Assembly (NCBI RefSeq): GCF_036013935.1
Contig: NZ_CP107902.1
Coordinates: 9,581,001 to 9,645,000, forward strand
Reading direction: 5' to 3'
Origin: Streptomyces sp. NBC_00461
GTDB taxonomy: Bacteria; Actinomycetota; Actinomycetes; Streptomycetales; Streptomycetaceae
DNA: 64,000 bases
Shown here: piece after piece, positions 4,899-37,151 of the stretch
Layout: the number at the start of each line of letters is the position of its first letter
Numbering within the stretch: the first letter of the stretch is position 1
Position numbers and translations under genes: made by a program
Notes under the pieces: model-generated
The model's input: the letters and a program-made list of their open reading frames with translations, nothing else
Told to the model about the DNA's origin: nothing
Database searches by the model: none

Positions 4899-5064
4899 GC
4901 CGAGCGTTTCCGTCGGCTTCAGGGCCGCGGAAGCGCCGAGGGGCCCGCTGAACTCGGCTGGATACTCACCCAGTACGTCGCGAGCCGATCTGCCCAGAAC
5001 CTCGCCAGGCGCGTATCCGAACAGAAGCAGGCGAGTTCGCGGATTCTTGGAGGGGGCAACCGCT

Positions 5065-5076
5065 GAACCCGCGCGT
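5065..5076 (+). repeat. Candidate attL: 12-bp direct repeat copy 1
   Basis: GAACCCGCGCGT occurs here and again, in the same orientation, at 36989-37000. This copy lies just beyond the point where the truncated phosphatase stops matching its paralog; the other copy lies just inside the stub carrying the opposite half of the same PAS domain. The repeat could be the core of a recombination site. Twelve bases in GC-rich DNA is modest evidence alone; the position is what makes it notable. Confidence 0.5.
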
Positions 5077-5528
5077 CGTCGCCAGGTTGAAGACCGGAAC
5101 GAGGGCGGGTTCGTCTATGCCTGCAGGAATGAGGCTGCTGTCAGACCTATGGGGATCGTTGGCGTGCGGCGGCGGTGGCTGTTCACGGTGCGCGCGGCGA
5201 CCACGGAGAGATGGTGTCCTGGCGGGTGGTGTGGTGTAGTCGAGCCGCCTTCGTGATGCCGCAGATCGCGGTGGTGATCCGCCCGGCACCCGGGAACTTT
5301 GTGGGTCATGCCGCTGTAGCCAGCCGGCCGGCCGCACAGGAAGCTCCACCGCGCGGCCCGGCTACAGGCTTTGTGTCAGCGCGCCGTCCACATGGCTACA
5401 CCACTCCGTGGGGCACGACTGGGGACCTTGCTGTCCGGTGCCGATGAAGCCTGGTTGCGTCCCATGGCCGTACCGGATCGGAGGCGAAACGTGAGGGCGG
5501 GGCTCGGTGAAAGATGCTGGGAGTCCTC
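5077..5528. other. Gene-free left edge of the island
   Basis: No frame here combines a plausible start with a recognisable protein. Short overlapping frames on both strands have no ribosome binding site and no known motif. It may hold decayed integration or transposon sequence. Nothing can be assigned. Confidence 0.5.
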
Positions 5529-6258
5529 TCAGACGTCGCTGAGGCGCAGGCCGACGTGGGCCTTGTAGCGGCAGTTCACCGAGATCAGGTTGGCTACCAG
5601 CGACTCCACTTGGTGGGCGTTGCGCAGTCGTCCGCCGTAGAGGCCGCGTGCGCCCGGGAGGCGTGAGGCGAGTGCCTGGACGGTGTCGGTGGCGGCGCGT
5701 TCGTCGCCCAGGACGAGTACGTCCGTGTCGATCTTCTCGATCTGCCGGTCTTCCAGAGTGACGGCGGAGAGATGGTGAAACGCAGCGGTCACCCGGGAGT
5801 CAGACAGCAGCGCGGCAGCCTGCTGGGCGGCGCTGCCCTCCTCGGGCCTGAGTGCGTAGGCTCCCTTCTTGTCGAAGCCGAGGGGGTTGACGCAGTCGAC
5901 CACGATCTTGCCGGCGAGTTCATCGCGGAGCGTGGCCAGCAGCTCGGCATGCCCCTCCCAGGGAGTGGCGACGATCACCAGATCGCTCTTCCGCGCGGTC
6001 GTGGCGTTGTCAGCGCCGCGGACGTCAGGGCCGATGTCTGCTGCCGCGGAGGCGGCCCGGGCGGCGTCTCCTGACCCGATGATGACCTGTTGGCCCGCGC
6101 CAGCGAGCCCGGTAGGCGAGGCCGCGCCCCTGCGGGCCGGTTCCGCCGAGGATGCCGACGACCAGGCCGAACACGTCGGGGAGGCGATGGGGATCGTTTC
6201 GAGTGGCTTCAGCGGGAGTGGAGGGACGGGTGCCGGCAGCTTCGTCGAAAGTCGTCAT
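5526..6258 (-). pseudogene. F420:NADP oxidoreductase-like protein, one frameshift
   Basis: An NADPH:F420 reductase (NpdG/Fno type) that would pass hydride between F420 and NADP. Translation from ATG 6258 gives a 30-residue leader, then the Rossmann motif VVGILGGTGPQGRGLAYR. The frame then needs a one-base correction near 6105-6112 (an extra G in the minus-strand run CGGGCTCGC) to continue as LAGAGQQVIIGSGDAARAAS and DLVIVATPWEGH, then DCVNPLGFDKKGAYAL and the expected C-terminus. Everything except that base is conserved, so this is a recent frameshift or a sequence error. It lies last in the ligase-P450-LLM operon, next to an F420 oxidoreductase, so it may regenerate F420H2. Confidence 0.75.
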
Positions 6259-6359
6259 GCTGCGGTCCTCGGCTCGTTCGGTTCGCTCTTCCGCGGCCCG
6301 GTGCCATTCGTCGTCAGCGGGCCGCTCGGGCCGCGATGCGGGACACCGAATCGGCGCCG

Positions 6360-7298
6360 TCAGGCGGTCAGGGACTCCACGCGGCGCATCACCTCGCGGC
6401 AGAACGCGCCCACTCCGTTCGGATCGTCGGTGAACTGCGAGGGCTTGACGCAGAAGGTGGTGAATCCTTGGGCCATCTGCTCGGGGACGGGCTCGAGGGC
6501 CTGGGCGAGGTCGGCGCAGGAGTCGTCGTCGGGGAACACGGCGCGGGTGCCGCCGATCATCTCCAGATCGGCGATGTCGCGGCCCGCGGCGGCCATCGCG
6601 GTCTTCAGCGTCTGCATCTGCTCGGGCGTCACCTTCCCCAGCGGGTTGAAGGCGTGGCCGTACCGGACGATCCTGCGGACCATCGCGTCGTGCATGCCCG
6701 CGCCACCGAAGCACAGTCGGGGGCCGTCCGGGCAGTATGCCTTGGGCTCGAAGTAGACGTCCTGGAAGGCGTAGTACTCGCTCTCGTGAGACACGGGAGA
6801 GGGGCCCCACAACTTCGCCCAGATCTCCAGGTGCTCGTCGAGGAGCTTGCCGCGCCGGGAGAACGGGACGCCGAGTGCCGCGTACTCGTCCCGGCTCCAG
6901 CTGACGTTGGGCAGCACGATCAGGCGGCCCTCGGAGAGAAGGTCGAGGGTGCCGAGCTCACGGGCCAGGAGCAGGGGATGCCGCAGGGGAGCAATGACCG
7001 CCGACGCTGCGAGACGCACGCGCTCGGTGACGGCGGCGATCGCGCTGAGCAGCATGAGCGAGTTGGGCCACGGGGTGTGGGGGTCCTGGTTGCCGGGCAG
7101 GGCGTAGTCGCGGGGGTTGCCCATCACGCCACCTGCTCCGGCGTCGGGGCCGAGCACGATGTGTTCGCTGATCATGACGGAGTCGAATCCGGCGTCCTCG
7201 GCCTCGCGGGCCCAGCGGATCAGGGTCGGCAGATCCGCGCGGCCTCCGGTCATGGTCCAGTTCTCGCTCAGGACGAGCTGCATGCGGGGAGTGGTCAT
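6360..7298 (-). CDS. LLM-class F420-dependent oxidoreductase
   Basis: A TIM-barrel luciferase-like protein of 312 residues. The start chosen is ATG 7298 (MTTPRMQLVLSENW), preceded by GAGGA at good spacing; an in-frame upstream extension is Arg/Pro-rich and not family-like. Recognisable stretches are GFDSVMISEHI near residue 45, the LGTLDLLSEGRLIVLPNVSW flavin region, and GVPFSRRGKLLDEHLEIWAKLW. The F420 class is favoured over FMN because a F420:NADP reductase-like gene follows. It stands third in an operon after the amide ligase and P450, so it probably oxidises or reduces an intermediate of that pathway. The substrate is unknown. Confidence 0.8.
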   Translation of the reverse strand: MTTPRMQLVLSENWTMTGGRADLPTLIRWAREAEDAGFDSVMISEHIVLGPDAGAGGVMGNPRDYALPGNQDPHTPWPNSLMLLSAIAAVTERVRLAASAVIAPLRHPLLLARELGTLDLLSEGRLIVLPNVSWSRDEYAALGVPFSRRGKLLDEHLEIWAKLWGPSPVSHESEYYAFQDVYFEPKAYCPDGPRLCFGGAGMHDAMVRRIVRYGHAFNPLGKVTPEQMQTLKTAMAAAGRDIADLEMIGGTRAVFPDDDSCADLAQALEPVPEQMAQGFTTFCVKPSQFTDDPNGVGAFCREVMRRVESLTA

Positions 7299-7409
7299 CG
7301 TGGTGATCCTCGGGCCGAGTGTTTTTGGCGGGCGGACGAGAGGTGCGGCCGCTCGTGCGGGGCGGGGCGCCCCGGGCGGCCGCATCTTCTGGGCGGCTCG
7401 GGAAGGCGG

Positions 7410-8696
7410 TCAGGCGAGGGTGACTGCGACCGGCAGCTTCTTGATGCCGTTGACGAAGTTGGAGCGCACGCGCGGGACTTCGCCGGTCAGACGGATGTCG
7501 GCGATCCTCGGGATGAGCTCCTCGAACATGATGCGGATCTCGGTGCGGGCGAGGAGGTTGCCCAGGCACAGGTGGGGGCTGCCCTTGCCGAAGGTCACGT
7601 GGTCGTTGTCGGCGCGGGCGACGTCGAAGTCGTACGGGTTGCCGAAGACCGCCTCGTCGCGGTTGCCGGAGGCGTACCACATGACGACCTTGTCGCCCTC
7701 CTTGATGCGCTTGCCGCCCAGTTCCACGTCCCGGGTCGCCGTGCGGCGGAAGTGGTAGACGGGCGACGCCCAGCGCAGGAACTCCTCCACCGCGACGGGG
7801 ATCAGGGACGGGTCCTCCTGGAGCCGGGCCAGCTGCTCGGGGTGCTGGAGGAGGGCCAGCATGGAGTGGGTGATGGTGTGGCGGGTGGTCTCGTTGCCGG
7901 CCACGACGAGGAGCAGGAAGTAGTTGTCGAAGTCCTGCGGCGTGAGGGGAACGCCGTCCCTCGGGGTGGTGTTCACCAGCCTGGACACCAGGTCCGTGCC
8001 GTCGCCGCCGCGCCGCTGCCGGGCCAGCTCACGGCCGTACTCGAAGACCTCCAGCGAGGCGGGCGAGCGGAACGGGAGGTGCCGGTACTGCTCGCTCTCC
8101 GCGCTGTCGAGCAGGACGTCGGCGTAGTCGGGGTCGGTGTTGCCGATGATGCGGTTGCCCCAGTCGATGAGCTGCTGGTTGTCCTCCGGCGGAACGTCGA
8201 GGAGGCGGGCGAGGACGTTGATGGGGAAGTCGGCGGAGACCTCCTTGACGAAGTCGAAGCTCCCCTTGGCGAGCGCCGCGTCCAGCGTGGTGGCGGTCAG
8301 GCCGCGCAGGAAGTCGGTGTAGCTGTTGATGACGCTCGCGCCGAACTGGCGCTGGAGCAGGCTGCGCATGGCGCGGTGGCGGACGCCGTCCAGTTCCAGG
8401 ATGGAGGCACGCGTCTTGATCTGGTCCTCGTCGACCTCTTCGAGGTTGACGAACTTCATCGAGGTGAAGGTCTCGGCGTCGCGGTCGACGCGGGCGATGT
8501 CGGCGTGCCGCGTCACCGCCCAGAAGCCGGAGTTGGGGGCCTCCTCGGGCTGCCAGTGCACCGGGTCCTGGTGACGCAGGGTGTGGAACATCCGCCACGG
8601 GGTGATCCCGTCGGTGAAGTTGTCCAGGTCGGCGAGGTTGACGTCCGCAAGCGGCATCGGCTCGTTCACGGCGGCGGTCGGGGTCTCGGTCGTCAT
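7410..8696 (-). CDS. Cytochrome P450 (CYP124/125/142-like heme loop)
   Basis: A soluble class I bacterial P450 of 428 residues. ATG 8696 has GGGAG upstream and is preferred to ATG 8717. The I-helix oxygen-activation motif is canonical (VVAGNETTRHT, about residue 245), the K-helix ExxR is present (EEFLRW), and the heme loop reads FGKGSPHLCLGN with the Cys ligand near 376. The two residues between the second Gly and His match the CYP124/125/142 layout. Electrons probably come from the divergently encoded ferredoxin (10387) and reductase (10578). The gene begins 17 bases after the amide ligase stop, so they are co-transcribed. A hydroxylation or dealkylation of the pathway amine is an inference. 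Confidence 0.9.
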   Translation of the reverse strand: MTTETPTAAVNEPMPLADVNLADLDNFTDGITPWRMFHTLRHQDPVHWQPEEAPNSGFWAVTRHADIARVDRDAETFTSMKFVNLEEVDEDQIKTRASILELDGVRHRAMRSLLQRQFGASVINSYTDFLRGLTATTLDAALAKGSFDFVKEVSADFPINVLARLLDVPPEDNQQLIDWGNRIIGNTDPDYADVLLDSAESEQYRHLPFRSPASLEVFEYGRELARQRRGGDGTDLVSRLVNTTPRDGVPLTPQDFDNYFLLLVVAGNETTRHTITHSMLALLQHPEQLARLQEDPSLIPVAVEEFLRWASPVYHFRRTATRDVELGGKRIKEGDKVVMWYASGNRDEAVFGNPYDFDVARADNDHVTFGKGSPHLCLGNLLARTEIRIMFEELIPRIADIRLTGEVPRVRSNFVNGIKKLPVAVTLA

Positions 8697-8713
8697 CGCA
8701 TGGCTCCCAGTCG

Positions 8714-10069
8714 TCACAGGTGGTAGGCGTACTCGGTGAACTCCCAGTCGGTGACGTGCCGTTGGAAGCGTTCGATCTCGTTGCGCTTGTAGGAGAGGAA
8801 GGAAGCGGTGAAGTCCTTGCCGAGGACGTCGGTCAGTTCCGTGTCCGCTTCCAGGGCGTCCAGCGCGGCCGGCAGGCTCATGGGCAGTACTGCTGCCTTG
8901 GCGGTGTCGTAGCCGTACCCCTCCAGTGGGGCGGGGGGCTCCTCGCCAGCCAGCACCCCGAGCAGCGCGGCGGCGACCGTGCCCGCGATCAGCAGGTACG
9001 GGTTGGCGCTGGCGTCACCCAGGCGCAGTTCGAACCGTGCGCCGGAGCCGCGCTCGGGCGGGATGCGGACCATGGCGCTGCGGTTGTCCAGGCCCCAGTC
9101 GATCAGCCAGGGCGCGAGGGTGTCGGGACCGAAACGCTTGTAGGAGTTCACGGTCGGGTTGGCCAGTGCGGCCAGGGCCGGGGCGTGGGCGAGGATGCCG
9201 GCGACGGCGTGGCGGGCGGTGGCGGACAGCCCGTACGGCCCGGCGGGATCGTCGAAGGCGTTGCCGCCCTCGTCGTTGTCGCAGGACAGGTGGAGATGGA
9301 AACCGGAGCCGCCGGCATCGTTGAACGGCTTGGCCATGAACGTGGCGAGTTTCCCCTCCTTCCGGGCCAGCTCCTTGATCGCGGACTTGAAGCGGAAGGC
9401 GCGGTCCGCGGCGGACAGGGCTTCGGAGTGGGTGAGGTTGATCTCGAACTGGCCGCCGTCGAACTCGTGGTTGCCGCTGGTCGCGCCGATGTTCATGTCC
9501 CGCAGCAGACGCAGCGTGCGGAGCAGATGATTGTTGCCGTCGGCGCGCAGACCGGCTGTGTAGACGACGCCGGCGGCGCCCGAGTAACGCTTCCAGCCGC
9601 TCGGGTAGGCAGGGTCCTCGTCGCAGAGGAAGTACTCGAGCTCGGGGCCGACCACCGGACGCAGGCCGTGTTCGGCACACCGGGCGAGGACGGTGCGCAG
9701 AAGATCGCGGGGCGACTCCGGTGCGGGCAGGCCGGTGGCCGGGTCGGTGACGTCGGCGAGGCAGGACGCGACGCCGGGCTCCCAGGGGAGGGGGGCCAGG
9801 CTGTCCAGGTCCGGTCGCACGGTGATGTCGGGCAGGCCGGCGTCGAGACCGCCGGAGACGGGGACCACGTCGCCCTGGGGGCTGGTGTGGTAGACGGCCC
9901 GGCAGAAGGCCAGGCCGTGGTCGCAGGCCGACGGCAGGTGGTCCAGCAGGATGTCGCGTGCGCGGTCGGTGCCGATGAGGTCGGGATATGTCACGCGCAC
10001 CACGTCGATGCCCTCGGCGGCGAGCCGCTGCATGTGCTGACGGACGCTGGGGGTTGGAGCTGCGCTCAC
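8714..10069 (-). CDS. Glutamine-synthetase-like gamma-glutamylamide synthetase
   Basis: A GlnA-fold ATP-dependent ligase of 451 residues. GTG 10069 is preceded by GAGGAG; a longer ATG frame overlaps the promoter region and is unlikely. The N-terminal beta-grasp part (VRVTYPDLIGTDRARDILLD) leads to the catalytic part with VVGPELEYFL near residue 165, GNHEFDGGQFEINL near 230, the ATP motif GGSGFHLHLS near 275, NSYKRFG near 330 and ARFELRLGD near 370. Members that are not true glutamine synthetases join glutamate to amines (polyamines, ethanolamine, aniline, isopropylamine). It lies in a region with a PuuC-like dehydrogenase, a PuuD-like hydrolase and a permease, so gamma-glutamylation of an amine substrate is the favoured role. 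Confidence 0.82.
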   Translation of the reverse strand: MSAAPTPSVRQHMQRLAAEGIDVVRVTYPDLIGTDRARDILLDHLPSACDHGLAFCRAVYHTSPQGDVVPVSGGLDAGLPDITVRPDLDSLAPLPWEPGVASCLADVTDPATGLPAPESPRDLLRTVLARCAEHGLRPVVGPELEYFLCDEDPAYPSGWKRYSGAAGVVYTAGLRADGNNHLLRTLRLLRDMNIGATSGNHEFDGGQFEINLTHSEALSAADRAFRFKSAIKELARKEGKLATFMAKPFNDAGGSGFHLHLSCDNDEGGNAFDDPAGPYGLSATARHAVAGILAHAPALAALANPTVNSYKRFGPDTLAPWLIDWGLDNRSAMVRIPPERGSGARFELRLGDASANPYLLIAGTVAAALLGVLAGEEPPAPLEGYGYDTAKAAVLPMSLPAALDALEADTELTDVLGKDFTASFLSYKRNEIERFQRHVTDWEFTEYAYHL

Positions 10070-10148
10070 CGATGTCTCCTCGGGCGCTTGGGGGATGTGG
10101 GTGGCGAGGGAAGTCAGAGGGCCGGTGCTGTTGGGGGCACGGGCGGAC

Positions 10149-10166
10149 TTGTTTGATGCCAAACGG
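10149..10166 (+). promoter_or_regulatory. Operator, TTGTTTGATGCCAAACGG (proposed MarR site 1)
   Basis: It contains the inverted repeat GTTTG-N4-CAAAC. It overlaps the -10 of the minus-strand operon. Closely related sites are at 10255, 20637, 22224 and, more weakly, at 32633 in front of the island's MarR gene. Confidence 0.65.
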
Positions 10167-10191
10167 TATGGGGGTTGCGGACGCCCCACAA
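10163..10191 (-). promoter_or_regulatory. Promoter of the ligase-P450-LLM operon
   Basis: On the minus strand TTGTGG (10186-10191) is followed after 17 bases by TACCGT (10163-10168). The -10 element runs directly into the operator at 10149-10166, so a bound repressor would block RNA polymerase. Confidence 0.55.
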
Positions 10192-10208
10192 GAGGGGATG
10201 GAAAAAAA

Positions 10209-10224
10209 TTATCCGCATGGATAG
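10209..10224 (+). promoter_or_regulatory. TetR-type operator TTATCCGCATGGATAG (site 1)
   Basis: The arms TATCC and GGATA flank four bases. The site ends four bases before the -35 of the ferredoxin promoter. Matching palindromes lie at 16657-16672 and 28833-28848, next to the two TetR genes of the island. Confidence 0.7.
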
Positions 10225-10227
10225 GTA

Positions 10228-10256
10228 TTGACCAGGGGTGGACGGCTTCTTATGTT
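10228..10256 (+). promoter_or_regulatory. Promoter of the ferredoxin-Hpa operon
   Basis: TTGACC (10228-10233), a 17-base spacer and TATGTT (10251-10256) make a good housekeeping promoter. It lies between the TetR-type site upstream and a GCCAAAT operator at the expected start of transcription. Confidence 0.65.
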
Positions 10257-10272
10257 GTTTGAAGCCAAATGA
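10255..10272 (+). promoter_or_regulatory. Operator, TTGTTTGAAGCCAAATGA (proposed MarR site 2)
   Basis: Second copy of the motif in this intergenic region. It covers the -10 end and the expected transcription start of the ferredoxin operon, a position that suits repression. Confidence 0.65.
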
Positions 10273-10306
10273 GTAAGGGCCCCCGTCAGTCGCCGGGCCC
10301 TTGGCC

Positions 10307-10339
10307 GGGGCCCGGCCGACAGCGGTCGGGCCCCTTTTC
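10307..10339 (+). terminator. Hairpin with T-run in the leader (possible attenuator)
   Basis: GGGGCCCG (10307-10314) pairs with CGGGCCCC (10327-10334) and is followed by TTTTC. It lies between the promoter at 10228 and the ferredoxin start, so it would stop the operon's own transcript unless another structure forms. Other GGGCCC blocks upstream (about 10278 and 10295) could compete for pairing. Confidence 0.45.
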
Positions 10340-10386
10340 TTCCCCTTGCCCCCGCCCCGACGCCCTCACTTTCAGGAGGACTGGCC

Positions 10387-10575
10387 ATGAAGGTCGTCGT
10401 CGACATGAACAAGTGCCAGGACCACGGCCAGTGCGTCTTCGCCGCCCCCGATGTCTTCTCCATGGACGACAGCGGCCACCTGGCCTACGTCTCCGACCCC
10501 GACGACGCGCTGCGCGACGAGGTCGAGGAAGCCGCAGACGTGTGTCCGCTCCAGGCCATCCGTATCGAGGGCTGA
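10387..10575 (+). CDS. Ferredoxin for P450 (CxxHxxC type)
   Basis: A 62-residue soluble ferredoxin with a strong AGGAGG site. The cluster ligands read CQDHGQC near residues 10-16 and CP near residue 53. With His in the second ligand position this is the class that carries a 3Fe-4S (or atypical 4Fe-4S) cluster and feeds actinobacterial P450s. It is translationally joined to the reductase that follows, which gives a complete electron chain for the P450 encoded divergently at 7410-8696. Confidence 0.9.
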   Translation: MKVVVDMNKCQDHGQCVFAAPDVFSMDDSGHLAYVSDPDDALRDEVEEAADVCPLQAIRIEG

Positions 10576-10577
10576 TG

Positions 10578-11786
10578 ATGAACGCACGCATCGTCGTGGC
10601 CGGCGCCTCCATGGCCGGTCTGCGCGCGGCCGAGCAGCTGCGGGCTGCCGGCTGGACCGGAGCCATCACGCTCGTCGGTGACGAGCCGCACATGCCCTAC
10701 AACCGGCCGCCCCTGTCCAAGGAGGTCCTGGCCGGCAAGGCACCCTTCGAGTCCCTCGCCTTCCGCCCGCGGGCGAGCGTGGCCGACGCGGAGTGGCGGC
10801 TGGGCACCAAGGTCGTCGCCGCGCGGCTCGCTGAGAACATCGTCGAGTTCGACGACGGCGAGGCACTCACGTACGACGGACTGGTCGTCGCCACCGGAAT
10901 GCGGCCCCGGCGCCTGCGCTGCCCCGGCCCGCTCGCCGGCCGGCACACGGTCCGCACCATCGACGACGCGCAGGGCCTGCGACAGGCCCTCACCAGGCCC
11001 GGAGCCCGGGTGGTCGTCGTCGGAGGCGGCTTCATCGGCTGCGAGGTCGCCGCCACCGCCGTCGCTCTGGGCGCCCGCGAGGTGACCGTAGTCGACCCGC
11101 TGCCGCTGCCGATGGTCGGCCCCCTGGGAGAGCTCCTCGCCAGGGCCCTGCTGAAGCGCCACGAAGAACGCGGCGTGCGCTTCGCCCTCGGCACGGGCGT
11201 GACCGGCTTCACCGGCGACGACCATGTCACCGGCGTCGCCCTCGGCGACGGCACCGTCCTGCCCGCCGATGTGGTGGTTGAGTCGGTCGGCTCGGTCGCC
11301 AACACCGAGTGGCTGGACGGCAACGGCCTCGACCTGAGCGACGGCGTGCTCACCGACGAGCACCTGCGCGTCGGCGGACGGCCCGACGTGGTGGCCGTCG
11401 GTGACGTCGCCCGTTTCCCCAACGCCCGCTACGACGGCGTACCGCGCCGTGTGGAGCACTGGTGCATCCCCACGGACACCGCCAAGCACGCCGCGAAGAC
11501 CCTGGTCGCCGGGCTGAGCGGCACCGGCCACGACCTGTCCTCGTTCGCGCCGCTGCCCACCTTCTGGAGCGACCAGCACGACTTCCGCCTGCAGTCCTTC
11601 GGGGCACCGGTACTCGGCAAGGAGGACGTGCGCGTACTGGAGGGCGACCTCGACGGTGACGTCGTCGTCGGCTACCACGCCGGTGCCCGGCTGGCCGGTG
11701 TCGTCGCCCTGGGCGGTCAGGCCGCGGCGGCCGCCGCCTCCCGTTACCGCGCCGAACTGCTCAAGCAGCCCGCCCCCTCCGCCTAA
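10578..11786 (+). CDS. NAD(P)H:ferredoxin reductase (FAD)
   Basis: A pyridine-nucleotide-disulfide-type flavoprotein of about 402 residues that reduces the preceding ferredoxin. The FAD-binding motif is degenerate but clear (IVVAGASMAGLRAAEQLR), followed by MPYNRPPLSKEVLAG, the NAD(P) motif VVVVGGGFIGCEVAATA near residue 145, and the FAD-closing motif VVAVGDVARF near residue 270. The sequence TGATGATG overlaps the ferredoxin stop; the second ATG (10578) has the better distance to GAGGG. The C-terminal reductase domain has the usual PTFWSDQ stretch. Confidence 0.9.
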   Translation: MNARIVVAGASMAGLRAAEQLRAAGWTGAITLVGDEPHMPYNRPPLSKEVLAGKAPFESLAFRPRASVADAEWRLGTKVVAARLAENIVEFDDGEALTYDGLVVATGMRPRRLRCPGPLAGRHTVRTIDDAQGLRQALTRPGARVVVVGGGFIGCEVAATAVALGAREVTVVDPLPLPMVGPLGELLARALLKRHEERGVRFALGTGVTGFTGDDHVTGVALGDGTVLPADVVVESVGSVANTEWLDGNGLDLSDGVLTDEHLRVGGRPDVVAVGDVARFPNARYDGVPRRVEHWCIPTDTAKHAAKTLVAGLSGTGHDLSSFAPLPTFWSDQHDFRLQSFGAPVLGKEDVRVLEGDLDGDVVVGYHAGARLAGVVALGGQAAAAAASRYRAELLKQPAPSA

Positions 11787-11800
11787 GGACCTTGCTGATC

Positions 11801-29591: not shown

Positions 29592-31983
29592 CCAGCCGGT
29601 CCGGCCGCCCGGCAGGTCTTCCTCGGCCATACCGACGCCCGTCGGCGCGACGGCGGTGCTGGACCAGCGCCTGCGGTTCACCGGGTGGAGCCGGGAAGCC
29701 GAGGAACTGTTCGGTCTGGAGTCCGAAGAAGTCCTCGGCCGGCCCGCCGACGCCGTCCTGGCCGATACCGAGACGGGTGCCGGCGTCTCAGCCGCTGGTG
29801 GCGGTGGTGCGGCATGGTCGCTCGGCCCCCGGCCGGTCCGCCGTGGTGACGGCCGCCCGGTATCCGTGTCCTTGTCTCTCACCCCGCTCGCCCTGGGGGC
29901 GGGCGCGACCGGGTGGCTGCTGACGGCCATGGACGCCGAACTGGCGCATCGGGAGGCCATCGGCCGGGCCATGCTTGACGGACTCGACCGGGAAGCGCCC
30001 GTCCAGTTGGTGGTCTACGACACGGACGCCCGGGTGCGCTGGATCAACGCCGCGATCGAAAAACAGTTCGGAATCCCGCTGGAGGATGCTGCCGACAGGT
30101 TCGTGAAGGACATCCTGCCGCAGGGCGAGGTGCTGGGGGAGACCGACGGGACAGCCACGAGCGTCGAAGAGATCGTCCAGCGCGTGGCCCGCACCGGCGC
30201 ACCCGTGATCGACGTCCGTTACCGCAGCTCCACATACCTCGACCCCCATCACGAACGCGTCTGGTCGTGTTCCTACTTCCGGCTTCAGGACGAGCACGGC
30301 CGACCGATCGGAGTCTGTGAGGCAGCCCTCGATATCACCGACCGCTATGTGGCGCGCCGGCGTCTCGCACTGCTCAGCCGAGCCAGCGGCAGTATCGGAA
30401 GGACCCTGGACATCCGGCGCACGGCCCAAGACCTGGCGGAACTCGTGGTCCCCGAGTTCGCCGACGCCGTCACCGTGGACATCGTCGAAGCCGTCTTGGG
30501 CGGGCAGGAACCACAACACTTCGGCACCCGCCCCACCCTGTGCCGGGTGGCTCACCGCACCGATCACGCCGCGGCCAAGGACACTGCGTACGACGCACTG
30601 GACGCCGTCCGCCTGCGGTGCCTGGCCGAGAACGCGCCGGCCACCGACGCGGCCACCCACGCGCTCGCCCTTCCCCTCAAAGCCCGTGGCGCCACCCTGG
30701 GCGTCGTGGCCTTCGCACGCTCCCGACACGCCGACCCCTTCGAGCACGAGGAGATCCAGCTCGCCGAAGAGCTCGTCTCCCGCACCGCGGTCTGCCTGGA
30801 CAACGCCCGCCGCTACACCCGAGAACACGCGACCGCGCTCACCCTCCAGCGTGATCTACTCCCCCGCACCCTGCCCCAGCAGCCGGGCGTGGAGGTCGCT
30901 CACCGCTATCTGCCCGCGGCCGGGCCCGCCGGCGTCGGAGGGGACTGGTACGACGTCATACCCCTGTCCGGGGCACGCGTCGGGCTGGTAGTGGGGGACG
31001 TCGCCGGACACGGCACGGGCGCGGCCGCCACCATGGGCCGGGTGCGCACCACCGTCGCGGCGCTTGCGGCGCTCGACCTCGCGCCGGACGAACTGCTCGC
31101 CCGCCTCGACGACCTCGTGGCGCGGACCGGCGCCCCTGCCGGGCCCGCCGACGCCGAGGACCAGGCGCTGGGCGTCACCTGCCTGTACGCGATCTATGAT
31201 CCGGTCTCCCGGCACTGCGTCATGGCCCGGGCGGGCCACCTGCCGCCCGTGCTCGTCACCCCCGACGGACACGCCGAGCTCGTGGACCTTCCCGCCGGAC
31301 CGCCCCTCGGCCTGGGCGGCCTGCCCTTCGAATGCGCCGACATCGAACTGCCGGAAGGCGCCACGCTCGCCCTCTACACCGACGGACTCGTCGAAAACCG
31401 TCACACGGACATCGACGCCGGAGTCAGCTCTCTCTGCACCGCACTCGCCGGACCCGCGGACGGCCAACTGGACAAGACATGCGACAAGGTCATCACCACA
31501 CTCCTGCCCCAGCCCCCCGAGGACGACGCCGCACTGCTGCTGCTCCGCGTCCACGCCCTGGCCGACAGTCTGGTGGCGACGTGGGATGTGGCCTCCGACC
31601 CAGGAGAAGTCGCACGAGCGCGGTCGCTGGCCTGCAACCAGCTGGCCGGGTGGGGAGTCGACGAAGCCGCATCGTTCGTCGTCGAGCTCGTCGTCAGCGA
31701 GCTGGTCACCAACGCCATCCGCTACGGCGGCGCTCCGGTGTGTCTCCGGCTCATTCGGGAACGTGGCCTCATCGTCGAGGTCTCCGACGGCGGCCACACC
31801 TCGCCCCACCTGCGGCGGGCCGCGATGGAGGACGAGGGCGGCCGAGGACTGTTCCTGGTCGCGCAACTCACGCAGCGGTGGGGAACCCGGTACACGCCAA
31901 CGGGCAAGATCATCTGGACTGAGGTGTCGCTGGCGCCGCCCCGGCTGCCTGGTGCCTTCGCAGACGAGCAATTGGAGCTGTAG
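29566..31983 (+). CDS. PAS/PAS/GAF/SpoIIE phosphatase with C-terminal ATPase domain, complete
   Basis: An 805-residue signalling phosphatase; ATG 29566 has AGGAG. Domains: PAS-1 (TAVLDQRLRFTGWSREAEEL), PAS-2 (QLVVYDTDARVRWINAAIEK to DITDRYV), GAF (TLDIRRTAQDLAELVVPEF to TAVCLDNARRYT), PP2C (GGDWYDV, VGDVAGHGTGAAATMG, YTDGLVENR, DDAALLLL) and GHKL ATPase (ELVTNAIRYGG, EVSDGGHTS, DEGGRGLFLV). It is the intact paralog of the truncated gene at 2754-4898 and shows what that gene lost. Its overlap with the TetR 2 gene suggests co-expression. It probably links a ligand or redox signal to a sigma factor pathway; the partner is not encoded here. Confidence 0.9.
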   Translation: MTSIFQGRDQPVRPPGRSSSAIPTPVGATAVLDQRLRFTGWSREAEELFGLESEEVLGRPADAVLADTETGAGVSAAGGGGAAWSLGPRPVRRGDGRPVSVSLSLTPLALGAGATGWLLTAMDAELAHREAIGRAMLDGLDREAPVQLVVYDTDARVRWINAAIEKQFGIPLEDAADRFVKDILPQGEVLGETDGTATSVEEIVQRVARTGAPVIDVRYRSSTYLDPHHERVWSCSYFRLQDEHGRPIGVCEAALDITDRYVARRRLALLSRASGSIGRTLDIRRTAQDLAELVVPEFADAVTVDIVEAVLGGQEPQHFGTRPTLCRVAHRTDHAAAKDTAYDALDAVRLRCLAENAPATDAATHALALPLKARGATLGVVAFARSRHADPFEHEEIQLAEELVSRTAVCLDNARRYTREHATALTLQRDLLPRTLPQQPGVEVAHRYLPAAGPAGVGGDWYDVIPLSGARVGLVVGDVAGHGTGAAATMGRVRTTVAALAALDLAPDELLARLDDLVARTGAPAGPADAEDQALGVTCLYAIYDPVSRHCVMARAGHLPPVLVTPDGHAELVDLPAGPPLGLGGLPFECADIELPEGATLALYTDGLVENRHTDIDAGVSSLCTALAGPADGQLDKTCDKVITTLLPQPPEDDAALLLLRVHALADSLVATWDVASDPGEVARARSLACNQLAGWGVDEAASFVVELVVSELVTNAIRYGGAPVCLRLIRERGLIVEVSDGGHTSPHLRRAAMEDEGGRGLFLVAQLTQRWGTRYTPTGKIIWTEVSLAPPRLPGAFADEQLEL

Positions 31984-32017
31984 CGATCCGGGCTCACTCG
32001 TCCGGGACTGTCGCGGC

Positions 32018-32587
32018 TCAGGCCTTACGGCGGCCGCTGCGGCGTGGCGCGGGGGCGGCACCGCCCAACAGATCCTGACGGCGCTTCTCGCCGTTCTCCT
32101 CCACCTGCAGCACCACCCGGCGCAGTCCGTCGGCGACGGTCTGGCAGTCCGCGTCGCTGAGCCGCCCGGTGACGAAGGATTCCTCCTCGTTGAACGCCGG
32201 AAAGAGGCGCTGCATCAACTCCTGCCCTTCGTCGGTCAGGCTCAGGAGCACCAGCCTCCCGTCGGTGGGATGGTCTGCCCGCTGCACAAGCCCTCGTCTT
32301 TCCAACGTCCGGGCAACCCCCGTGAGCGTGCCCTTGGAAATCCCGGCTTCTTCGGCCACGTGCCGCGTCTCCGGCTCGCCCCAGATCCAGATGACCCAGA
32401 GCACCACGAAGGCGGTCCAGGTCAGGTCGACTCCGCGTAGCACGGAGTTCTCCAGGTGCTGCCGCACCGCCGAGGCGGCGCGATAGATGTTGGCGACAAC
32501 TGCCATCTGGTCATGCCGGACGGGGATACCGCCGAGCCTGGCCGCTGCCAGTTTCTCGGCTTCGGCGATGGATCGATGGCCGGGCAT
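32018..32587 (-). CDS. MarR-family regulator, proposed controller of the island
   Basis: A 189-residue winged-helix regulator. ATG 32587 has AAGGAG nine bases upstream and is chosen over ATG 32620. The wing region reads THVAEEAGISKGTLTGVART-like (ETRHVAEEAGISKGTLTGVA) near residue 85, followed by RRGLVQRADHPTDGRLVLLS, the conserved D.R wing. MarR proteins of this type respond to aromatic acids or CoA esters and repress catabolic operons. The region upstream holds a weaker version of the motif found at the ligase/ferredoxin, permease and PuuC promoters. That link is inferred from sequence similarity. Confidence 0.9.
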   Translation of the reverse strand: MPGHRSIAEAEKLAAARLGGIPVRHDQMAVVANIYRAASAVRQHLENSVLRGVDLTWTAFVVLWVIWIWGEPETRHVAEEAGISKGTLTGVARTLERRGLVQRADHPTDGRLVLLSLTDEGQELMQRLFPAFNEEESFVTGRLSDADCQTVADGLRRVVLQVEENGEKRRQDLLGGAAPAPRRSGRRKA

Positions 32588-32632
32588 GAGCACGCTCCTT
32601 CGGGCCGCCTGAGAAGCCATGAGACATTAGAA

Positions 32633-32650
32633 TTGTTCGGACCCAAATTA
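32633..32650 (+). promoter_or_regulatory. Operator-like site, TTGTTCGGACCCAAATTA (proposed MarR site 5)
   Basis: It lies 46 bases upstream of the MarR start. It keeps TTGTT at one end and CCAAAT at the other, with a diverged centre. A self-regulatory site is the usual arrangement for MarR genes. Confidence 0.5.
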
Positions 32651-32963
32651 TACGGTGCCTCGTTGTCCTCGACCTCATGAGGGTCAACCCCTCCGGGCTC
32701 GGGGCGCTGCATGCTCGCACCCCACGCAGACAGCTTCCTCTGGCCTCGGACCTACTGCGGACCTACCGAAACCTGGCCCATCCCCTTGCCGAGAAGCGAG
32801 TCAAACACAGTGCGGACTTCGGTACCGCCGACCTTTGTTGGACTACCGTCAACGCTGTCCTCAACGATCTGGCGGCGAGCAGCCTAGAAGACCGGGAGGC
32901 GATCTTGCTGGGCTTTCTTGGCACCGCTCCCGAGGGCGCGTCCGGCGCGGCCGGTCGGGGGCT
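32651..32963. other. Non-coding stretch between MarR gene and integrase
   Basis: No gene is supported. One plus-strand frame begins at 32677 but lacks a ribosome binding site and runs into the 3' end of the integrase gene. The region probably contains the MarR promoter and the end of the integrase transcript. Confidence 0.5.
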
Positions 32964-35309
32964 TCACTTGGGAAGCTTGGCGGTGCGTTCGGGGTGGGCG
33001 GCACCGACGTAGCGCATGGCGGTCTGCTCGGTGATGCCGAACAGCCGCATCAGCTTGAGGGGATCTGCACTCTCGAACGCCTCGTTGAGGATTCGGTCCT
33101 GACGCAGGCTGGCCAACGTCAGTCCCTTGGGGAGGGCTGCTCGCAGCGTGCCGATATTGACGGCCGGGTGGTCGGGATCGACAGCGGTCTTCTGGCTGAC
33201 CAGCAGGTGAGGGTTGGCCGAGGCGGGCCACCGCAGGTGACGGTAGGTCGTCCAATCGGCGGCGAGTTGGTGGGTGAGTTCCTCCAGGTAGAGGGTGTGC
33301 CGCAGCAGCCCGCGCTGTACTTCAAGGGTGCCGCGGGAGAGGTCAAGGCCCGTGGTGCGCAGGGTTCGGATCTCGTGTCCGGGCAGTGCGTGGATGGAGG
33401 CCAAGGCGACGACGAGGCGGCCGAGCGGCGTTGTCGCCTGGTCGAGCAGCCCCATCAGGACGTCGGCGGGGATGGACTTCGGGACCCCCTTTAGATCGCC
33501 GACCCGGAGGTCCCGGGCGGGATTGCGGAAGATCACACGCTCGCGTTTGAGCGCGCGGAACAGGCTGCGCAGGGCTATGGCCAGTCCTCGACGGGCGTAG
33601 CCGGACAAGCCGTCTACGGCGTCCTCGACTTGCTCCTTCGTGATCTCCCTCAGTGAGTCCACGCCAGCCGTCGTGGTCCACGCGGTGAGGGTGGGCTGGA
33701 GCGTGGTGAGGTAGCGGCGGATACCGTCGTACCCGCGGGGCTCGCCTTCGCGGCGACCCTGTTCGCGCATGACTTTCACCCAGGTTCCCACCTCGCTTGC
33801 GACCGGTTTCGGCAAGGCGGTGAGGGTCGACTCGATCCACACCAGATCCGCGTCCCGATGCAGGTCGGGATCCTCCACCAGCAGGCCGCGGTCGCGCAGG
33901 AACTGGCAGACGGGTTTGGCAGCCAGGTTCGCGTCGATCCGGGCCAGGTCGTGCACGTCGCGTTCGAAGACGGCTGTCTCGGCGCCGAGCCAGTACAGGA
34001 GGATGGTGAGCGTGCGGGTGTTCTTCCGGTAGTCCGGCCGCTCTCCCGGTCGATGGCGGGTGAACTCCTCGAGCAACCACTGGGCGGTCTTGGTCAGCGG
34101 CGGCTCGCCCGAAGGCATGCTCCGCAGCCGGGCCAGCACCGGGGCCCAGTCGCGCCGGCTGGCGAACAGCGCTTCCTGTCCGCGGCACGTGTGCAGAGCG
34201 GGCCGTTGCTCGTCGTAGTTGGGCGCCTGGCCGTCGCCGACGGGGAACGCCTCGAACGGCCCCCTTTTGCCGGTCGGCAGTGCGATCACCAGTTGCGTGA
34301 ACCGCCGGGAGGCCGGGCGGGCTTGGTCGATGAGGCGGTACGGGTGGCAGCTGCGGCAACGGTCGTCGCGCAGGACCAGCCCGTCGCGGCCGCAGCGGCA
34401 GCACCGGCCCCGCCCTGCTCGTTCCCGCCAGTGCCGACACGGATCGCAGACAAAACCTGCCCGTCGGCCGACGGGAATCCAGGCGTAGCAGTCGGTGCAC
34501 TGGCGGGGCGCCGGAAGCGGCAGCGGCGTCGGAGCGGTGATGTATGGGGTGCGGGCGGGCTGGTCTGAGATGGAAAACCGCATGGGCTCGGACGCCTCGT
34601 CCAAGAGCCCGGCCCGCAGCAGGATAAGGCGAACAGCGTCCCCGTTGGTGGGAAGGTCCCGCAACATAGCCTCGGGTAGCCGCTCAGCACCCTCGGCCTC
34701 ACACACAGCCAGGGCCAGGCGGACCATCTCGGCGACCTTGTAGCGCCAGCCCGCGGTCAACCCGTGCTCGGTCTCCATCGCCTCGATCACCGGCTGGGCC
34801 TTCTCCCATCCGGCGACCGGGCGGCCGACGATTGCACTGACCGTGGTGTCGCCCAGCACGCGGGGCATGGTGAAGAGCGGGACCTGACCGGGTACCTGCG
34901 CCTCCAGCACCGGCGGGGCGGCGGGAGCGGCGCGCTGCTGCCGGAGCTTGGTCCACCACTCGACCCCCACACTCAGTCCGTTCTTGGTGGGCCGGCGCAG
35001 CGGCCGGGCCGACGCCGACCGGTCGCCGTATGTGCCGCCTACCGTGAGCTGGACCGGCCGAGGTCGCGCCTTCTTCAGGCCCAGAGCCCACTCGGCGTCT
35101 TCCTCAACTCGGATTGCCATGAGGCACGGCTTGCAGAGCCCGTCCGTGTTCAGGTGTGCCTCGTGCCGGCACCGCGGGCACAACCCGCGCTGAGGGTACT
35201 TCCTCGCCCAGGGCCGGCACCCGTCGCACACCCGGTACCAGTGCACCACCAGCCACCCCAGACACACCGGGCAGCTCCGCGCCAGCCCCTTCCCACGACC
35301 CGCCGTCAC
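32964..35309 (-). CDS. Large tyrosine-recombinase-like protein with zinc-ribbon N-terminus
   Basis: A 781-residue protein. The first 120 residues hold two CxxC pairs (CPVC...CDGC, CPRC...CKPC), and about residues 280-330 hold two more (CTDC...CDPC, CCRCG...CRSC), suggesting zinc-ribbon DNA-binding modules. The C-terminal 300 residues look like a phage integrase: a SAM-like core-binding part, GHEIRTLRTTGLDLSRGTLE with the first catalytic Arg, LASLRQDRI with the second, and AMRYVG with a candidate Tyr nucleophile. The catalytic set is more divergent than in the neighbour at 35665. It is the last gene of the integrase-HTH-integrase trio and is likely to act with it. Confidence 0.75.
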   Translation of the reverse strand: MTAGRGKGLARSCPVCLGWLVVHWYRVCDGCRPWARKYPQRGLCPRCRHEAHLNTDGLCKPCLMAIRVEEDAEWALGLKKARPRPVQLTVGGTYGDRSASARPLRRPTKNGLSVGVEWWTKLRQQRAAPAAPPVLEAQVPGQVPLFTMPRVLGDTTVSAIVGRPVAGWEKAQPVIEAMETEHGLTAGWRYKVAEMVRLALAVCEAEGAERLPEAMLRDLPTNGDAVRLILLRAGLLDEASEPMRFSISDQPARTPYITAPTPLPLPAPRQCTDCYAWIPVGRRAGFVCDPCRHWRERAGRGRCCRCGRDGLVLRDDRCRSCHPYRLIDQARPASRRFTQLVIALPTGKRGPFEAFPVGDGQAPNYDEQRPALHTCRGQEALFASRRDWAPVLARLRSMPSGEPPLTKTAQWLLEEFTRHRPGERPDYRKNTRTLTILLYWLGAETAVFERDVHDLARIDANLAAKPVCQFLRDRGLLVEDPDLHRDADLVWIESTLTALPKPVASEVGTWVKVMREQGRREGEPRGYDGIRRYLTTLQPTLTAWTTTAGVDSLREITKEQVEDAVDGLSGYARRGLAIALRSLFRALKRERVIFRNPARDLRVGDLKGVPKSIPADVLMGLLDQATTPLGRLVVALASIHALPGHEIRTLRTTGLDLSRGTLEVQRGLLRHTLYLEELTHQLAADWTTYRHLRWPASANPHLLVSQKTAVDPDHPAVNIGTLRAALPKGLTLASLRQDRILNEAFESADPLKLMRLFGITEQTAMRYVGAAHPERTAKLPK

Positions 35310-35320
35310 CGTGCGGCCCC

Positions 35321-35668
35321 TCAGCTCGGCGGGAGCGAGCGCGGCCCGGTGCCACGACGGTCGCGCGGGACCGGCCGCACCAGGCCCGCCGTCGGCTGCA
35401 CCTCAGCGCCGACGGCCCGTTGTCCCAACTCCGGCGCGGCCTGGCCCGTCCCGAGCGGCTCGGCCTGGAGCAGGTCGGCGACCGTGCAGTTCAGCGCGGC
35501 GCACATCTTGTCCAGGTCATCGAGGCGCACCGTGACCGGCGTGCCGCTCCACAGTGCAGCCACCTTGCTCAGCGACGGGTTGAACCCGACCTGTTGGAAG
35601 GCGGCGAGCACCTCGGTCGGCCGCCACAGGTCCCGTTGGGCGGCAACCATCCGCAGATTCCACTTCAC
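35321..35668 (-). CDS. XRE/Cro-type helix-turn-helix protein
   Basis: A 115-residue protein. The N-terminal 70 residues form a Cro/C1-type fold (WRPTEVLAAFQQVGFNPSLS, KVAALWSGTPVTVRLDDLDK, MCAALNCTVADLLQ), and the tail is Arg/Pro-rich and probably disordered. It overlaps the upstream integrase stop by four bases and precedes the second recombinase by 11 bases. In such trios it may act as regulator or directionality factor of the recombination; this is an inference from position. Confidence 0.8.
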   Translation of the reverse strand: MKWNLRMVAAQRDLWRPTEVLAAFQQVGFNPSLSKVAALWSGTPVTVRLDDLDKMCAALNCTVADLLQAEPLGTGQAAPELGQRAVGAEVQPTAGLVRPVPRDRRGTGPRSLPPS

Positions 35669-36855
35669 CGAAGGTTCCCCTTGTCCATCACCAGTCGCTG
35701 GGCCGCCCGGGAGCTGGCCGCCAGATTCGCGAGCTCTGGGTCAGCGTGAGCAGTCGCCATGTACCGAAGAGTCGTAGTTGCCCAGTCGTGTCCGAGTACC
35801 TTCTGGACCTCCCAAAGTGTCATCCCTCGCTCGTAGTTGTGGGTCGCGCAGGCGTGCCGCAGCAGGTGCGGAAACAGGTTGGTGACCGGTCCCGTGAGGT
35901 AGTGTGCGGCTGCGGTGTGCAACGCCTTCCGGAACGTCGAAGGCACGATCGCCGGCGCGATCGGCACATTCAGATCCGCGATCGCCTTCGACTTTCGCTC
36001 CGACGGCCACAGCGGCGCCCGCGGGTGCTCCGCGTCGTCGCCGAACTCGCCCCGGATCTCCTCGATGTACCACCACAAGAGGGTGCGGCTCTCTTGGAAC
36101 AGGTACGCCTCACGCGGCCGGGGACCTGAGCCCCGGGCTCCCTTACCAAGGACGACGAACCGGCCCCACTGGCCGTGCTCCCAGTGGATGTCGCCGAGGC
36201 AGACCCCGCACAGCTCCGCTGCGCGCACTCCCGACAGGTAGGCGATCTTCGTCATTACGTAATCGCGGCAGGCGACCGCGTACTTCCGTGCGTTCGGCAA
36301 CTCCTCGCGCCAGCGGGCGAAGAAGTCCTTCATCGCAGTCTGGGACGGCGGGATGCGTAGCCCGAAGTCCCCACGGTGGCGCGGCCGGTTGAACGGATCG
36401 ATCGGAGAATCGACGGTGGCGCCGAAGCGACGCATGATCTCGCCCGCGTACCGTTGTTCGAGGAAGGCAAAATACGCGTCGATCTTGTTGATCTTTCCGC
36501 GCAATGTCGACTGCGCCCGCTTGCCGGGGCCCGCGAAGTACTTGTCGACCTCCCGGGGTGTCAGCTGCCAGGGGACCGTGCCGTAGTACTCGCAGACTTC
36601 GATCACAGGCTTGATCAACCCGTCCAGCGTCGTCGGCGCCAGGCCAGCCGCGTCGCGCGCCCACTGGTACTCCGAGAGCGTGTCGAGGAAGAAACTCTCC
36701 TCGTCGTACGCCGACATACGGGCCTGGCGGCGCCGCTGGAGCGTGACGACGTCCGCGAGCCCGCTCTCGACCGACACCGACGCCGGGTCCACCGGCACGG
36801 CTGGCTCCGGTACGGGGCGTACGAGCGTCAACACGCGACTTTCGGAATCTGCCAC
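35665..36855 (-). CDS. Tyrosine recombinase (site-specific integrase)
   Basis: A 396-residue integrase with all expected catalytic residues. The N-terminal core-binding domain spans about residues 55-180. The catalytic domain shows SGVRAAELCGVCLGDI with the first Arg, VLGKGARGSG with the beta-strand Lys, HLLRHACATH for the His-x-x-Arg pair, LGHDWATTTLRYM for the second His and the Tyr nucleophile. It is transcribed away from the right edge of the island, whose candidate att repeat lies 134 bases upstream of its start. It is the best candidate for the enzyme that mobilised the 32-kb segment. Confidence 0.9.
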   Translation of the reverse strand: MADSESRVLTLVRPVPEPAVPVDPASVSVESGLADVVTLQRRRQARMSAYDEESFFLDTLSEYQWARDAAGLAPTTLDGLIKPVIEVCEYYGTVPWQLTPREVDKYFAGPGKRAQSTLRGKINKIDAYFAFLEQRYAGEIMRRFGATVDSPIDPFNRPRHRGDFGLRIPPSQTAMKDFFARWREELPNARKYAVACRDYVMTKIAYLSGVRAAELCGVCLGDIHWEHGQWGRFVVLGKGARGSGPRPREAYLFQESRTLLWWYIEEIRGEFGDDAEHPRAPLWPSERKSKAIADLNVPIAPAIVPSTFRKALHTAAAHYLTGPVTNLFPHLLRHACATHNYERGMTLWEVQKVLGHDWATTTLRYMATAHADPELANLAASSRAAQRLVMDKGNLR

Positions 36856-36988
36856 GAGGCCGCATATTGCAGCGATCTCTCGCAGATTTTACGAGTTACT
36901 GCGGAGATCTCACGTCAACGGCTAGGGGGGGCCAATACCGTGATCTACCTGCTGAGATGCGGCTTCGCGGTCGTCGAGCGCCCGACGG

Positions 36989-37000
36989 GAACCCGCGCGT
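36989..37000 (+). repeat. Candidate attR: 12-bp direct repeat copy 2
   Basis: GAACCCGCGCGT, identical and in the same orientation as 5065-5076. It lies between the integrase gene and the phosphatase N-terminal stub. Confidence 0.5.
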
Positions 37001-37012
37001 ACTCCACTGGTC

Positions 37013-37151
37013 TTGCGGCTTCCGGGCTCCAACCGACGAACCGCATCCGGTCATCCAGTACGGCGGTCGCGCGTCCGGCCATCAGCGGGCTGGGCTCCGG
37101 GGGAGAGCCCTCTTCCCGCCAAGACTCCGGGGAACTTGTGAGACCTGTCAT
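37013..37151 (-). pseudogene. Phosphatase N-terminal stub (PAS start only)
   Basis: From ATG 37151 the minus strand reads MTGLTSSPESWREEG, then GRATAVLDDRMRFVGWSPEA, and then loses all similarity near 37013. This matches the PAS-1 start of the complete phosphatase at 29566 (GATAVLDQRLRFTGWSREAE). It is exactly the part missing from the truncated phosphatase at 2754-4898, lies on the same strand and comes before it in reading direction. It is best explained as the separated 5' end of that gene. Confidence 0.72.

Follow-up and report, generated by a model that had tools for sequence, protein, structure and literature searches.

Within the 64,000-nucleotide stretch of Streptomyces sp. NBC_00461 analyzed here (contig NZ_CP107902.1, positions 9,581,001 to 9,645,000; hereafter the window), which belongs to a host genome assembled as a single contig of 10.37 Mb, the segment 5024-37009 is very probably a site-selective tyrosine-recombinase transposon of the actinobacterial Tn554-related class, with a trio of recombinase-module genes at one end, catabolic cargo in the middle and a short distal end, inserted into a SpoIIE phosphatase gene. 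The original prediction for this DNA had proposed that a 32-kb island split one phosphatase gene, and a single insertion of this kind accounts for both gene fragments to the base. From sequence comparison we could read the ends of the element, its in-frame empty site, its membership in a family of similar elements, and the occurrence of its cargo elsewhere without the trio. The boundaries on which the argument depends are as follows (other genomes and loci are designated by handles beginning with G and L).

5024..37009, minus strand: whole element, ~31,986 bp (about 31.99 kb), defined by shared terminal sequences and a frame-restoring join; read from trio end to distal end
37010..37250, minus strand: host gene fragment 1, which carries the beginning of the interrupted phosphatase; likely start codon MTGL at 37151
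2754..5023, minus strand: host gene fragment 2, remainder of the interrupted gene, from the second half of PAS-1 through PAS_4 and SpoIIE to HATPase
36984..37009, minus strand: trio-side terminus, (C)AGTGGAGTACGCGCGGGTTC..., defined by matrix score and the end of conservation among relatives
5024..5073, minus strand: distal terminus, made up of GCGGGTTC, 18 nt and GAATCCGCGAACTCGCCTGCTTC, after which host sequence begins; its orientation is opposite to that of the trio-side terminus
5024..5209, minus strand: distal end module, 74% identity to the distal end of the G394 element
5065..5076, plus strand: 12-bp repeat on the distal side, a subterminal copy and not the boundary
36989..37000, plus strand: 12-bp repeat on the trio side, within the terminus and 9 bp from the end of the element

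The phosphatase open reading frame (ORF) at 2754-4898 on the minus strand is truncated, as originally described: its start is absent, and the SpoIIE/PAS frame runs back to LLLFGYAPGEVLG. A profile search assigned this ORF a PAS_4-SpoIIE-HATPase architecture, and its upstream frame continues to ~5023, beyond which the sequence is unrelated. The missing start, ATAVLDDRMRFVGWSPEA, was likewise correctly located at 37013-37151 on the same strand, with the recombinase trio and the catabolic gene set lying between the two fragments. The 46-amino-acid (aa) piece of phosphatase encoded by fragment 1 has no Pfam match and is too short to decide paralog affinity by itself; fragment 2 contains neither a stop nor a frameshift. 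Joining 37010 to 5023 produces an open frame of 836 codons with no surplus bases, in which the residues at the joint read ...FVGWSPEAAR/LFGYAPGEVLG... and the empty site, without the 31.99 kb, reads ...GWSPEAARLFGYAPGE.... The rejoined protein aligns with an intact paralog encoded at 29527-31983 (64% identity over 813 aa) with no gap at the joint, and one base more or less at this position would break the frame. As the flanks rejoin without a codon gained or lost, no target duplication is visible, and because the rejoined frame is free of stops and frameshifts, the insertion is probably recent. The 58 extra bases and shifted frame reported earlier prove to be an artefact of joining the flanks at the 12-bp repeat, the distal copy of which lies 41 bp inside the true end; the doubt as to a decayed site or an exchange among paralogs arose from that join at the wrong repeat, and is needless.

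The ends were defined independently of the window, using matrices built from 16 other elements (the window was excluded, as were G362 and L027, which have 4 mismatches). Scored in this way, 36984-37008 is the top 25-mer of the window at 32.6 bits (runner-up, 12.4), and 5024-5073 scores 42.2 bits against 11.8 for the next best site in the 64 kb, within the range of 30.5-58.6 bits obtained for the 16 real distal ends by leave-one-out scoring. The boundary sequence at the trio side is (N)AGTGGAGTACGCGCGGGTTC, and when 21 tnpA-bearing loci were aligned to the window, the match ended at 37006-37008 in 10, at 37011 and 37020 in two, and inside the element in the remaining nine. The clue to the distal end came from two elements in the same GGDEF gene, L016 and L021, in which the host gene resumes right after ...GAACCYGCGCGYTTC; the layout that recurs across elements is GGGTTC, 18 nt, GAATCCGCGAACCCGCGCGCTTC, host, and the two termini are mutually inverted. 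The 12-bp direct repeat GAACCCGCGCGT is indeed present at 5065-5076 and 36989-37000, but we rejected it as an attachment site, given that it is set back from the conserved ends, by 9 bp on the trio side and 41 bp on the distal side. Composition, which had been put forward as a further check, does not mark the island by either GC or 4-mers: GC values are 0.699 (cargo), 0.686 (trio), 0.705 (right flank) and 0.672 (5-kb left flank). A foreign composition of the cargo was also discounted, as its 4-mers are nearest those of the right flank, and the short left flank differs more.

Elements with these termini form a family. A first scan of species genomes with the 396-aa recombinase of the trio returned 21 loci, 18 of them in Streptomyces, and a tnpA match at E 1e-40 or better was found in 62 of 392 genus genomes (own included here and below; up to four candidates scored per genome). 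To the first loci we added places from this ranking: leaving aside the window's own, 20 of the 21 top-scoring ones were taken (a G182 place tied with another was passed over), and none further down; of these 20 further places and 14 requested extensions, 32 of the 34 stretches existed. Both termini could be placed in 20 of the 32 oriented sequences, of which 19, the window included, were kept after one duplicate was dropped; where there were multiple distal candidates, the choice was made by layout, by eye. Sequences left unused were those with the distal end absent from the compared stretch (G067, L012, L013, L015, L017, L018, L023, L025, L026), together with L024 (4-mismatch candidates only), G336 (no trio-side end), G000b (no distal end) and G203b (same as G203a). 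Some records carry two labels, L011/G415, L016/G020 and L021/G185 among others. The termini of the window element thus recur in 18 other elements of 2.7-21 kb, the element in the window being the largest; the cargo of Tn554 is much smaller than that seen here.

Nine other elements also yield coherent frames when their flanks are joined by the rule used in the window. A GGDEF gene is restored in G020, G185 and G118, in all three at the codon before DxDHFK and with the codons on both sides of the joint keeping the family motif; a Mom-like gene is restored in G415, G394 and G182b, and transposase-like genes in G134, G203a and G182c. When the pieces were searched apart, those of G182c matched a Tn3 DDE profile at 3-122 (left) and 127-305 (right), and those of G134 a DDE transposase weakly on the left (0.032) and at 2.5e-5 on the right; G415 matched Mom 2-135 on the left and nothing on the right, and G020 matched GGDEF from 39 on the right and nothing on the left. 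The target genes of G394, G182b, G185, G118 and G203a were assigned by resemblance only. Across the 19 elements the attB columns hold 12.4 bits, compared with a mean of 5.8 and a maximum of 9.6 in 200 controls 60-700 bp away; part of this signal arises because some elements share a target gene. A strong target sequence was accordingly rejected in favor of a weak preference, as the targets share little sequence.

At the trio side, the element encodes three adjacent proteins on one strand.

35665..36855, minus strand: tnpA-like tyrosine recombinase, 396 aa (Phage_integrase PF00589, 7.9e-16)
35321..35668, minus strand: small Cro/C1-type helix-turn-helix (HTH) protein, 115 aa (HTH_26 PF13443, 6.8e-10); 4-bp overlap with tnpA
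32964..35309, minus strand: large recombinase-like protein, 781 aa, with conserved CxxC pairs

The 396-aa recombinase has a 93% identical homolog in G415. A TnpC homolog was considered for the third protein and is not supported by the profile searches, in which the 115-aa protein matches HTH_26 alone in Pfam and no NCBIfam model. Neither database gave a match for the 781-aa protein; in an alignment of 32 relatives its CxxC pairs are conserved, and the conserved C-terminus of the family contains arginines and a tyrosine (read by eye), the usual histidines not being seen there. Its AlphaFold model is of low overall confidence (pLDDT 66, pTM 0.29), and a Foldseek search with this model returned XerA, XerH and Tn1549 Int with E-values of 4e-7 to 1e-6 but low TM-scores (0.16-0.23 by query) and a root-mean-square deviation near 10, such that the protein may be called recombinase-like on the basis of a fold search, with a low-confidence model, only. 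Its matches also include NC_008697 (29% identity, 65% query coverage, 6e-24) and Arthrobacter FB24 plasmids. Plasmid records matching the 396-aa protein number 257 (38 at 60% or more), and those matching the 781-aa protein 110 (22 at 60% or more). In all three annotated regions that were opened (L094, L095, L096), an integrase, an HTH protein and a large hypothetical protein occur in a row, followed in L095 by arsenic, mercury and copper genes, in L096 by fluoride exporters and later arsenic genes, and in L094 by hypothetical proteins; these are annotated neighbors of the trios, putative cargo.

The middle of the element is occupied by a catabolic cluster, in which profile matches are given relative to the cut-offs of the respective models.

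5536..32775, no strand assigned: cargo, catabolic cluster, a block also present in other genomes (G373 matches)
6360..7385, minus strand: F420-dependent luciferase-like oxidoreductase (just above cut-off)
7410..8717, minus strand: cytochrome P450 (below cut-off)
8714..10189, minus strand: glutamine-synthetase-family ligase (below cut-off)
10269..11786, plus strand: ferredoxin-reductase-like flavoprotein (below cut-off)
11792..12607, plus strand: acetoacetate-decarboxylase-family protein (profile match)
12621..14105, plus strand: aldehyde dehydrogenase, HpaE-like (below cut-off)
14098..15024, plus strand: LigB-type ring-opening dioxygenase (profile match)
15931..16533, plus strand: TetR regulator (profile match)
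16626..17960, plus strand: cytochrome P450 (below cut-offs)
18217..20547, plus strand: FdhF/YdeP molybdopterin oxidoreductase (above cut-off)
20683..22149, plus strand: amino-acid permease (below cut-offs)
22268..23758, plus strand: aldehyde dehydrogenase, PuuC-like (below cut-off)
23755..24477, plus strand: PuuD-like glutamine amidotransferase (below cut-off)
25932..27119, minus strand: ORF holding FolD, methylene-tetrahydrofolate dehydrogenase/cyclohydrolase (above NCBIfam cut-off)
26804..27649, minus strand: formyltetrahydrofolate deformylase PurU (above NCBIfam cut-off)
27668..28840, minus strand: GcvT-like demethylase (below cut-offs)
28866..29591, plus strand: TetR regulator, overlapping the start of the carried phosphatase
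29527..31983, plus strand: intact phosphatase, 818 aa (64% over 813 aa to the joined gene, 68% to the remaining fragment)
32018..32620, minus strand: MarR regulator, last gene of the cargo block; same ORF at the corresponding edge in G373

The predicted gene set suggests oxidative demethylation with one-carbon recovery, together with ring or amine breakdown. A 7-kb part of the cargo is nearly whole in four other genomes among the 392, with the best one or two places scored per genome. G373 matches the window at 5536-5925 (94.1%), 6231-25478 (95.8%) and 25860-32775 (95.3%), with two short breaks; in that genome the block ends with the MarR gene, beyond which lie other genes. In G266 the match to 5781-32945 is in separate pieces, at 77-86%. 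The match of G249 and G315 spans 7406-32674 at 90-93% but is missing ~18.3-20.6 kb, where both genomes hold a 78% inverted copy of the 6.4-7.3 kb gene. The flanks of the cargo are common to G249 and G315, and are not shared with G373 or G266 in the compared stretches, implying at least three settings. No close tnpA was found near this free cluster in any of the four genomes within the compared stretches; G266 has a distant tnpA (33% over 245 aa) ~3.6 kb beyond the block. The original prediction had named, as grounds against a single insertion, close relatives with the same segment at this locus and an intact phosphatase elsewhere; the cargo does occur in other genomes, but in other settings and, in the compared stretches, without this trio. 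Because the cluster is found without the trio, it occurs on its own and was most likely captured by the transposon as cargo.

Within the cargo, the two TetR regulators at 15931-16533 and 28866-29591 are related (~68-73% DNA identity over 310-475 bp). An NpdG-like F420-dependent reductase at 5529-6230 appears frameshifted when its translations are read, its 149-aa piece having no Pfam match, and G373 lacks ~305 bp at 5926-6230.

A recombinase gene at one end with accessory cargo would also be expected of an integrative conjugative element or a prophage remnant, which we nevertheless consider scarcely credible here: among the ORFs scanned, which did not include every small one, there was no transfer, replication or structural phage gene, and elements of 5-8 kb share this recombinase module and these termini.

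Several observations weigh against a single transposon insertion as the source of the whole island. The uninterrupted phosphatase that the original prediction proposed to seek was looked for in the 392 genomes with the phosphatase fragment as query and the best one or two candidates per genome scored; relatives were recovered, but no close ortholog of the split gene was, and no genome with an uninterrupted phosphatase at this locus. Of the six best relatives, none exceeds 64.8% identity to the joined protein; the best phosphatases of other genomes reach 67-68% to the split-gene fragment, and four of the six (in G373, G249, G315 and G266) are the copy inside the free cluster. The distal end of the window's element has 3 mismatches to the search consensus. 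A clear in-frame join, judged partly by eye, was obtained in only 10 of the 19 elements (window included); G374 needs one base less, and 8 of the 19 are without a clear join. Automatic frame choice by third-position GC missed the coherent frame of both the window and G118. Lastly, the trio and the cargo may have arrived separately, a smaller transposon coming first and the cargo being gained later.

This last scheme, in which a small trio transposon split the phosphatase and the 27-kb block was inserted subsequently by another route, is possible, if clearly the less likely course of events. It would fit with the presence of the block elsewhere without the trio and with borders of its own just inside the element ends (5536-32775 in G373; 7406-32674 in G249 and G315), as well as with the sizes of the 18 other elements (2.7-21 kb), which the window's exceeds. 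Yet a motif search revealed no second pair of ends inside the element (boundary repeats of the block itself were not searched for), and in this family it is usual for the two modules to be constant and the cargo between them to vary, to judge from element sizes and annotated neighbors.

Returning to a transposon that carried its cargo into the gene, we infer that the three trio proteins do the moving. They would bind both inverted termini, and a circular or paired intermediate would form, to recombine into a short target, here the codons ...EAAR/LFGY... in the first PAS domain of an RsbU-type SpoIIE phosphatase; with no visible target duplication, the gene would be cut cleanly in two. The 27-kb catabolic cluster, with its own TetR, MarR and phosphatase genes, would have been captured as cargo, and the element may still be able to move.

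The intact phosphatase inside the island was missed by the original prediction. It is the nearest relative of the split gene in its own genome; the next by score has 50% identity over the same length, and other relatives there reach 56-59% over the C-terminal part only. Among the best candidates from the 392 genomes, only the free-cluster copy of G266 scores slightly above it against the split gene. Its identity to the free-cluster copies is 92.6% (G373), 86% (G249), 85% (G315) and 80% (G266), and by these values it is the cluster's own phosphatase, an ortholog of the free-cluster copy and not of the split gene (64%). The presence of this intact relative (64-68%) within the island is what might favor an exchange or rearrangement among phosphatase paralogs without any insertion. 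We regard that explanation as highly improbable, however, as the break coincides exactly with a pair of transposon ends that were established in other genomes, the fragments rejoin without a missing or extra codon, and the carried copy is orthologous to that of the free cluster.

With a transposon insertion as the preferred explanation, one might speculate that the element swaps regulators, the loss of the host phosphatase being offset as the pathway's own phosphatase takes over signaling. This would favor keeping the insertion, if true, but we think it very unlikely. A tblastx comparison of 900 bp of each flank with the element's own sequence gave, among the matches listed for the 18 other elements, nothing longer than 85 aa, which was judged to be high-GC noise; the window gave 232 aa at 61% in the same test. 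A general rule that elements carry a relative of their target was accordingly discarded, with only the window of 19 showing the pairing, which may be due to chance.

Further features of the family deserve mention. The host genome contains two more tnpA genes of a 70-72% identical subfamily (G000:C1:8986808 and G000:C1:793290), the latter in an element of ~10 kb with both ends present. The G118 element (L072, L090) has two distal-end motifs after one trio, at oriented positions 7540 and 12620, an arrangement that would fit two nested or fused elements; the end at 7540 was rejected, as no recognizable gene spans that joint, unlike at 12620. In G203, contigs C1 (8.5 Mb) and C2 (245 kb) hold one and the same element, with flanks that agree over the compared stretch (L074, L075), which suggests a larger duplication rather than two insertions. 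The distal flanks of the G331, G146, L027 and G362 elements are mutually alike, as if they shared a target gene, which, judging by a motif, may encode an ATP-dependent DNA ligase, but the G331 piece has no Pfam match. The trio loci L014, L015, L017 and L023 have common cargo stretches of 1.4-4.6 kb (84-91%), which may be the same set as the arsenic genes after the L095 trio. In L096 (pFRL5), ~11 kb hold two trios of integrase, HTH and large protein that differ from each other; after the second come fluoride exporters, an enolase and a phosphoglycerate mutase, and later arsenic genes.

Among known systems, the closest are the actinobacterial Tn554-related transposons, described as carrying genes for a short tyrosine recombinase (about 350 aa) and, adjacent on the same strand, a long one (611-828 aa), and as residing on plasmids and chromosomes of Streptomyces and other actinobacteria (Van Houdt et al. 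2012, PMC3414803). The 396- and 781-aa proteins of the window likewise form an adjacent, same-strand module, and the larger matches NC_008697, which is in the table of that paper; the strain Arthrobacter FB24 is also in the table, under a different accession than the plasmids matched here. In its description of the class, that paper works from proteins, without termini, targets or cargo borders, and its account of the NC_008697 subfamily names no TnpC partner; in the window a small HTH protein lies between the recombinases. Tn554 itself, from Staphylococcus, combines an ordinary and a large recombinase with a small protein, imperfect inverted ends and target specificity (PMC10214605, which compares SEs, GInts, RITs and Tn554), and inserts without target duplication according to a reference title in the same source. 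The window element resembles it in the layout of its recombinase module, its inverted ends, its target specificity and the lack of target duplication, and differs in its target and in the HTH_26 protein in third place; no 6-bp footprint, which Tn554 carries over from its donor site, was recognized here.

GInts, which have three integrases and GinD (ginABCD), cargo of 2.5-70 kb and flanking direct imperfect repeats of 10-17 nt (PMC5385486), share the tripartite layout of a recombinase operon, a large adaptive cluster and a short distal end. The window instead has two recombinase-type proteins with an HTH protein, and inverted ends; unlike the attL/attR of GInts, its 12-bp direct repeat stands at unequal distances (9 and 41 bp) from the ends. 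RITs have three recombinase genes (315-410 aa), unlike the trio of 396, 115 and 781 aa, and the SE module consists of intA, tfp, intB and srap, compared with three genes only in the window. The nic transposon of pAO1 (Paenarthrobacter), a 49-kb actinobacterial catabolic cluster with Tn554-type recombinases at one end that has been proposed as a catabolic transposon (PMC10494377), differs in its pathway and in its far end, which is marked there by an IS481-family sequence, with no matching terminus described.

In the openly licensed literature found, including the relevant parts of PMC3414803, PMC8138268, PMC5385486, PMC10214605 and PMC10494377, no ends or targets of Streptomyces Tn554-related members were given. 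With termini defined, what had been a loosely described recombinase trio becomes a set of elements whose borders can be measured, and it becomes apparent how large catabolic clusters, and probably clusters for metal resistance as well, can be carried in Streptomyces, where the usual annotation of site-specific integrase, helix-turn-helix regulator and hypothetical protein would mask such elements entirely. We assign the element in the window to the actinobacterial Tn554-related class of 2012, a class already known in outline; in this member the ends and the target can be read.

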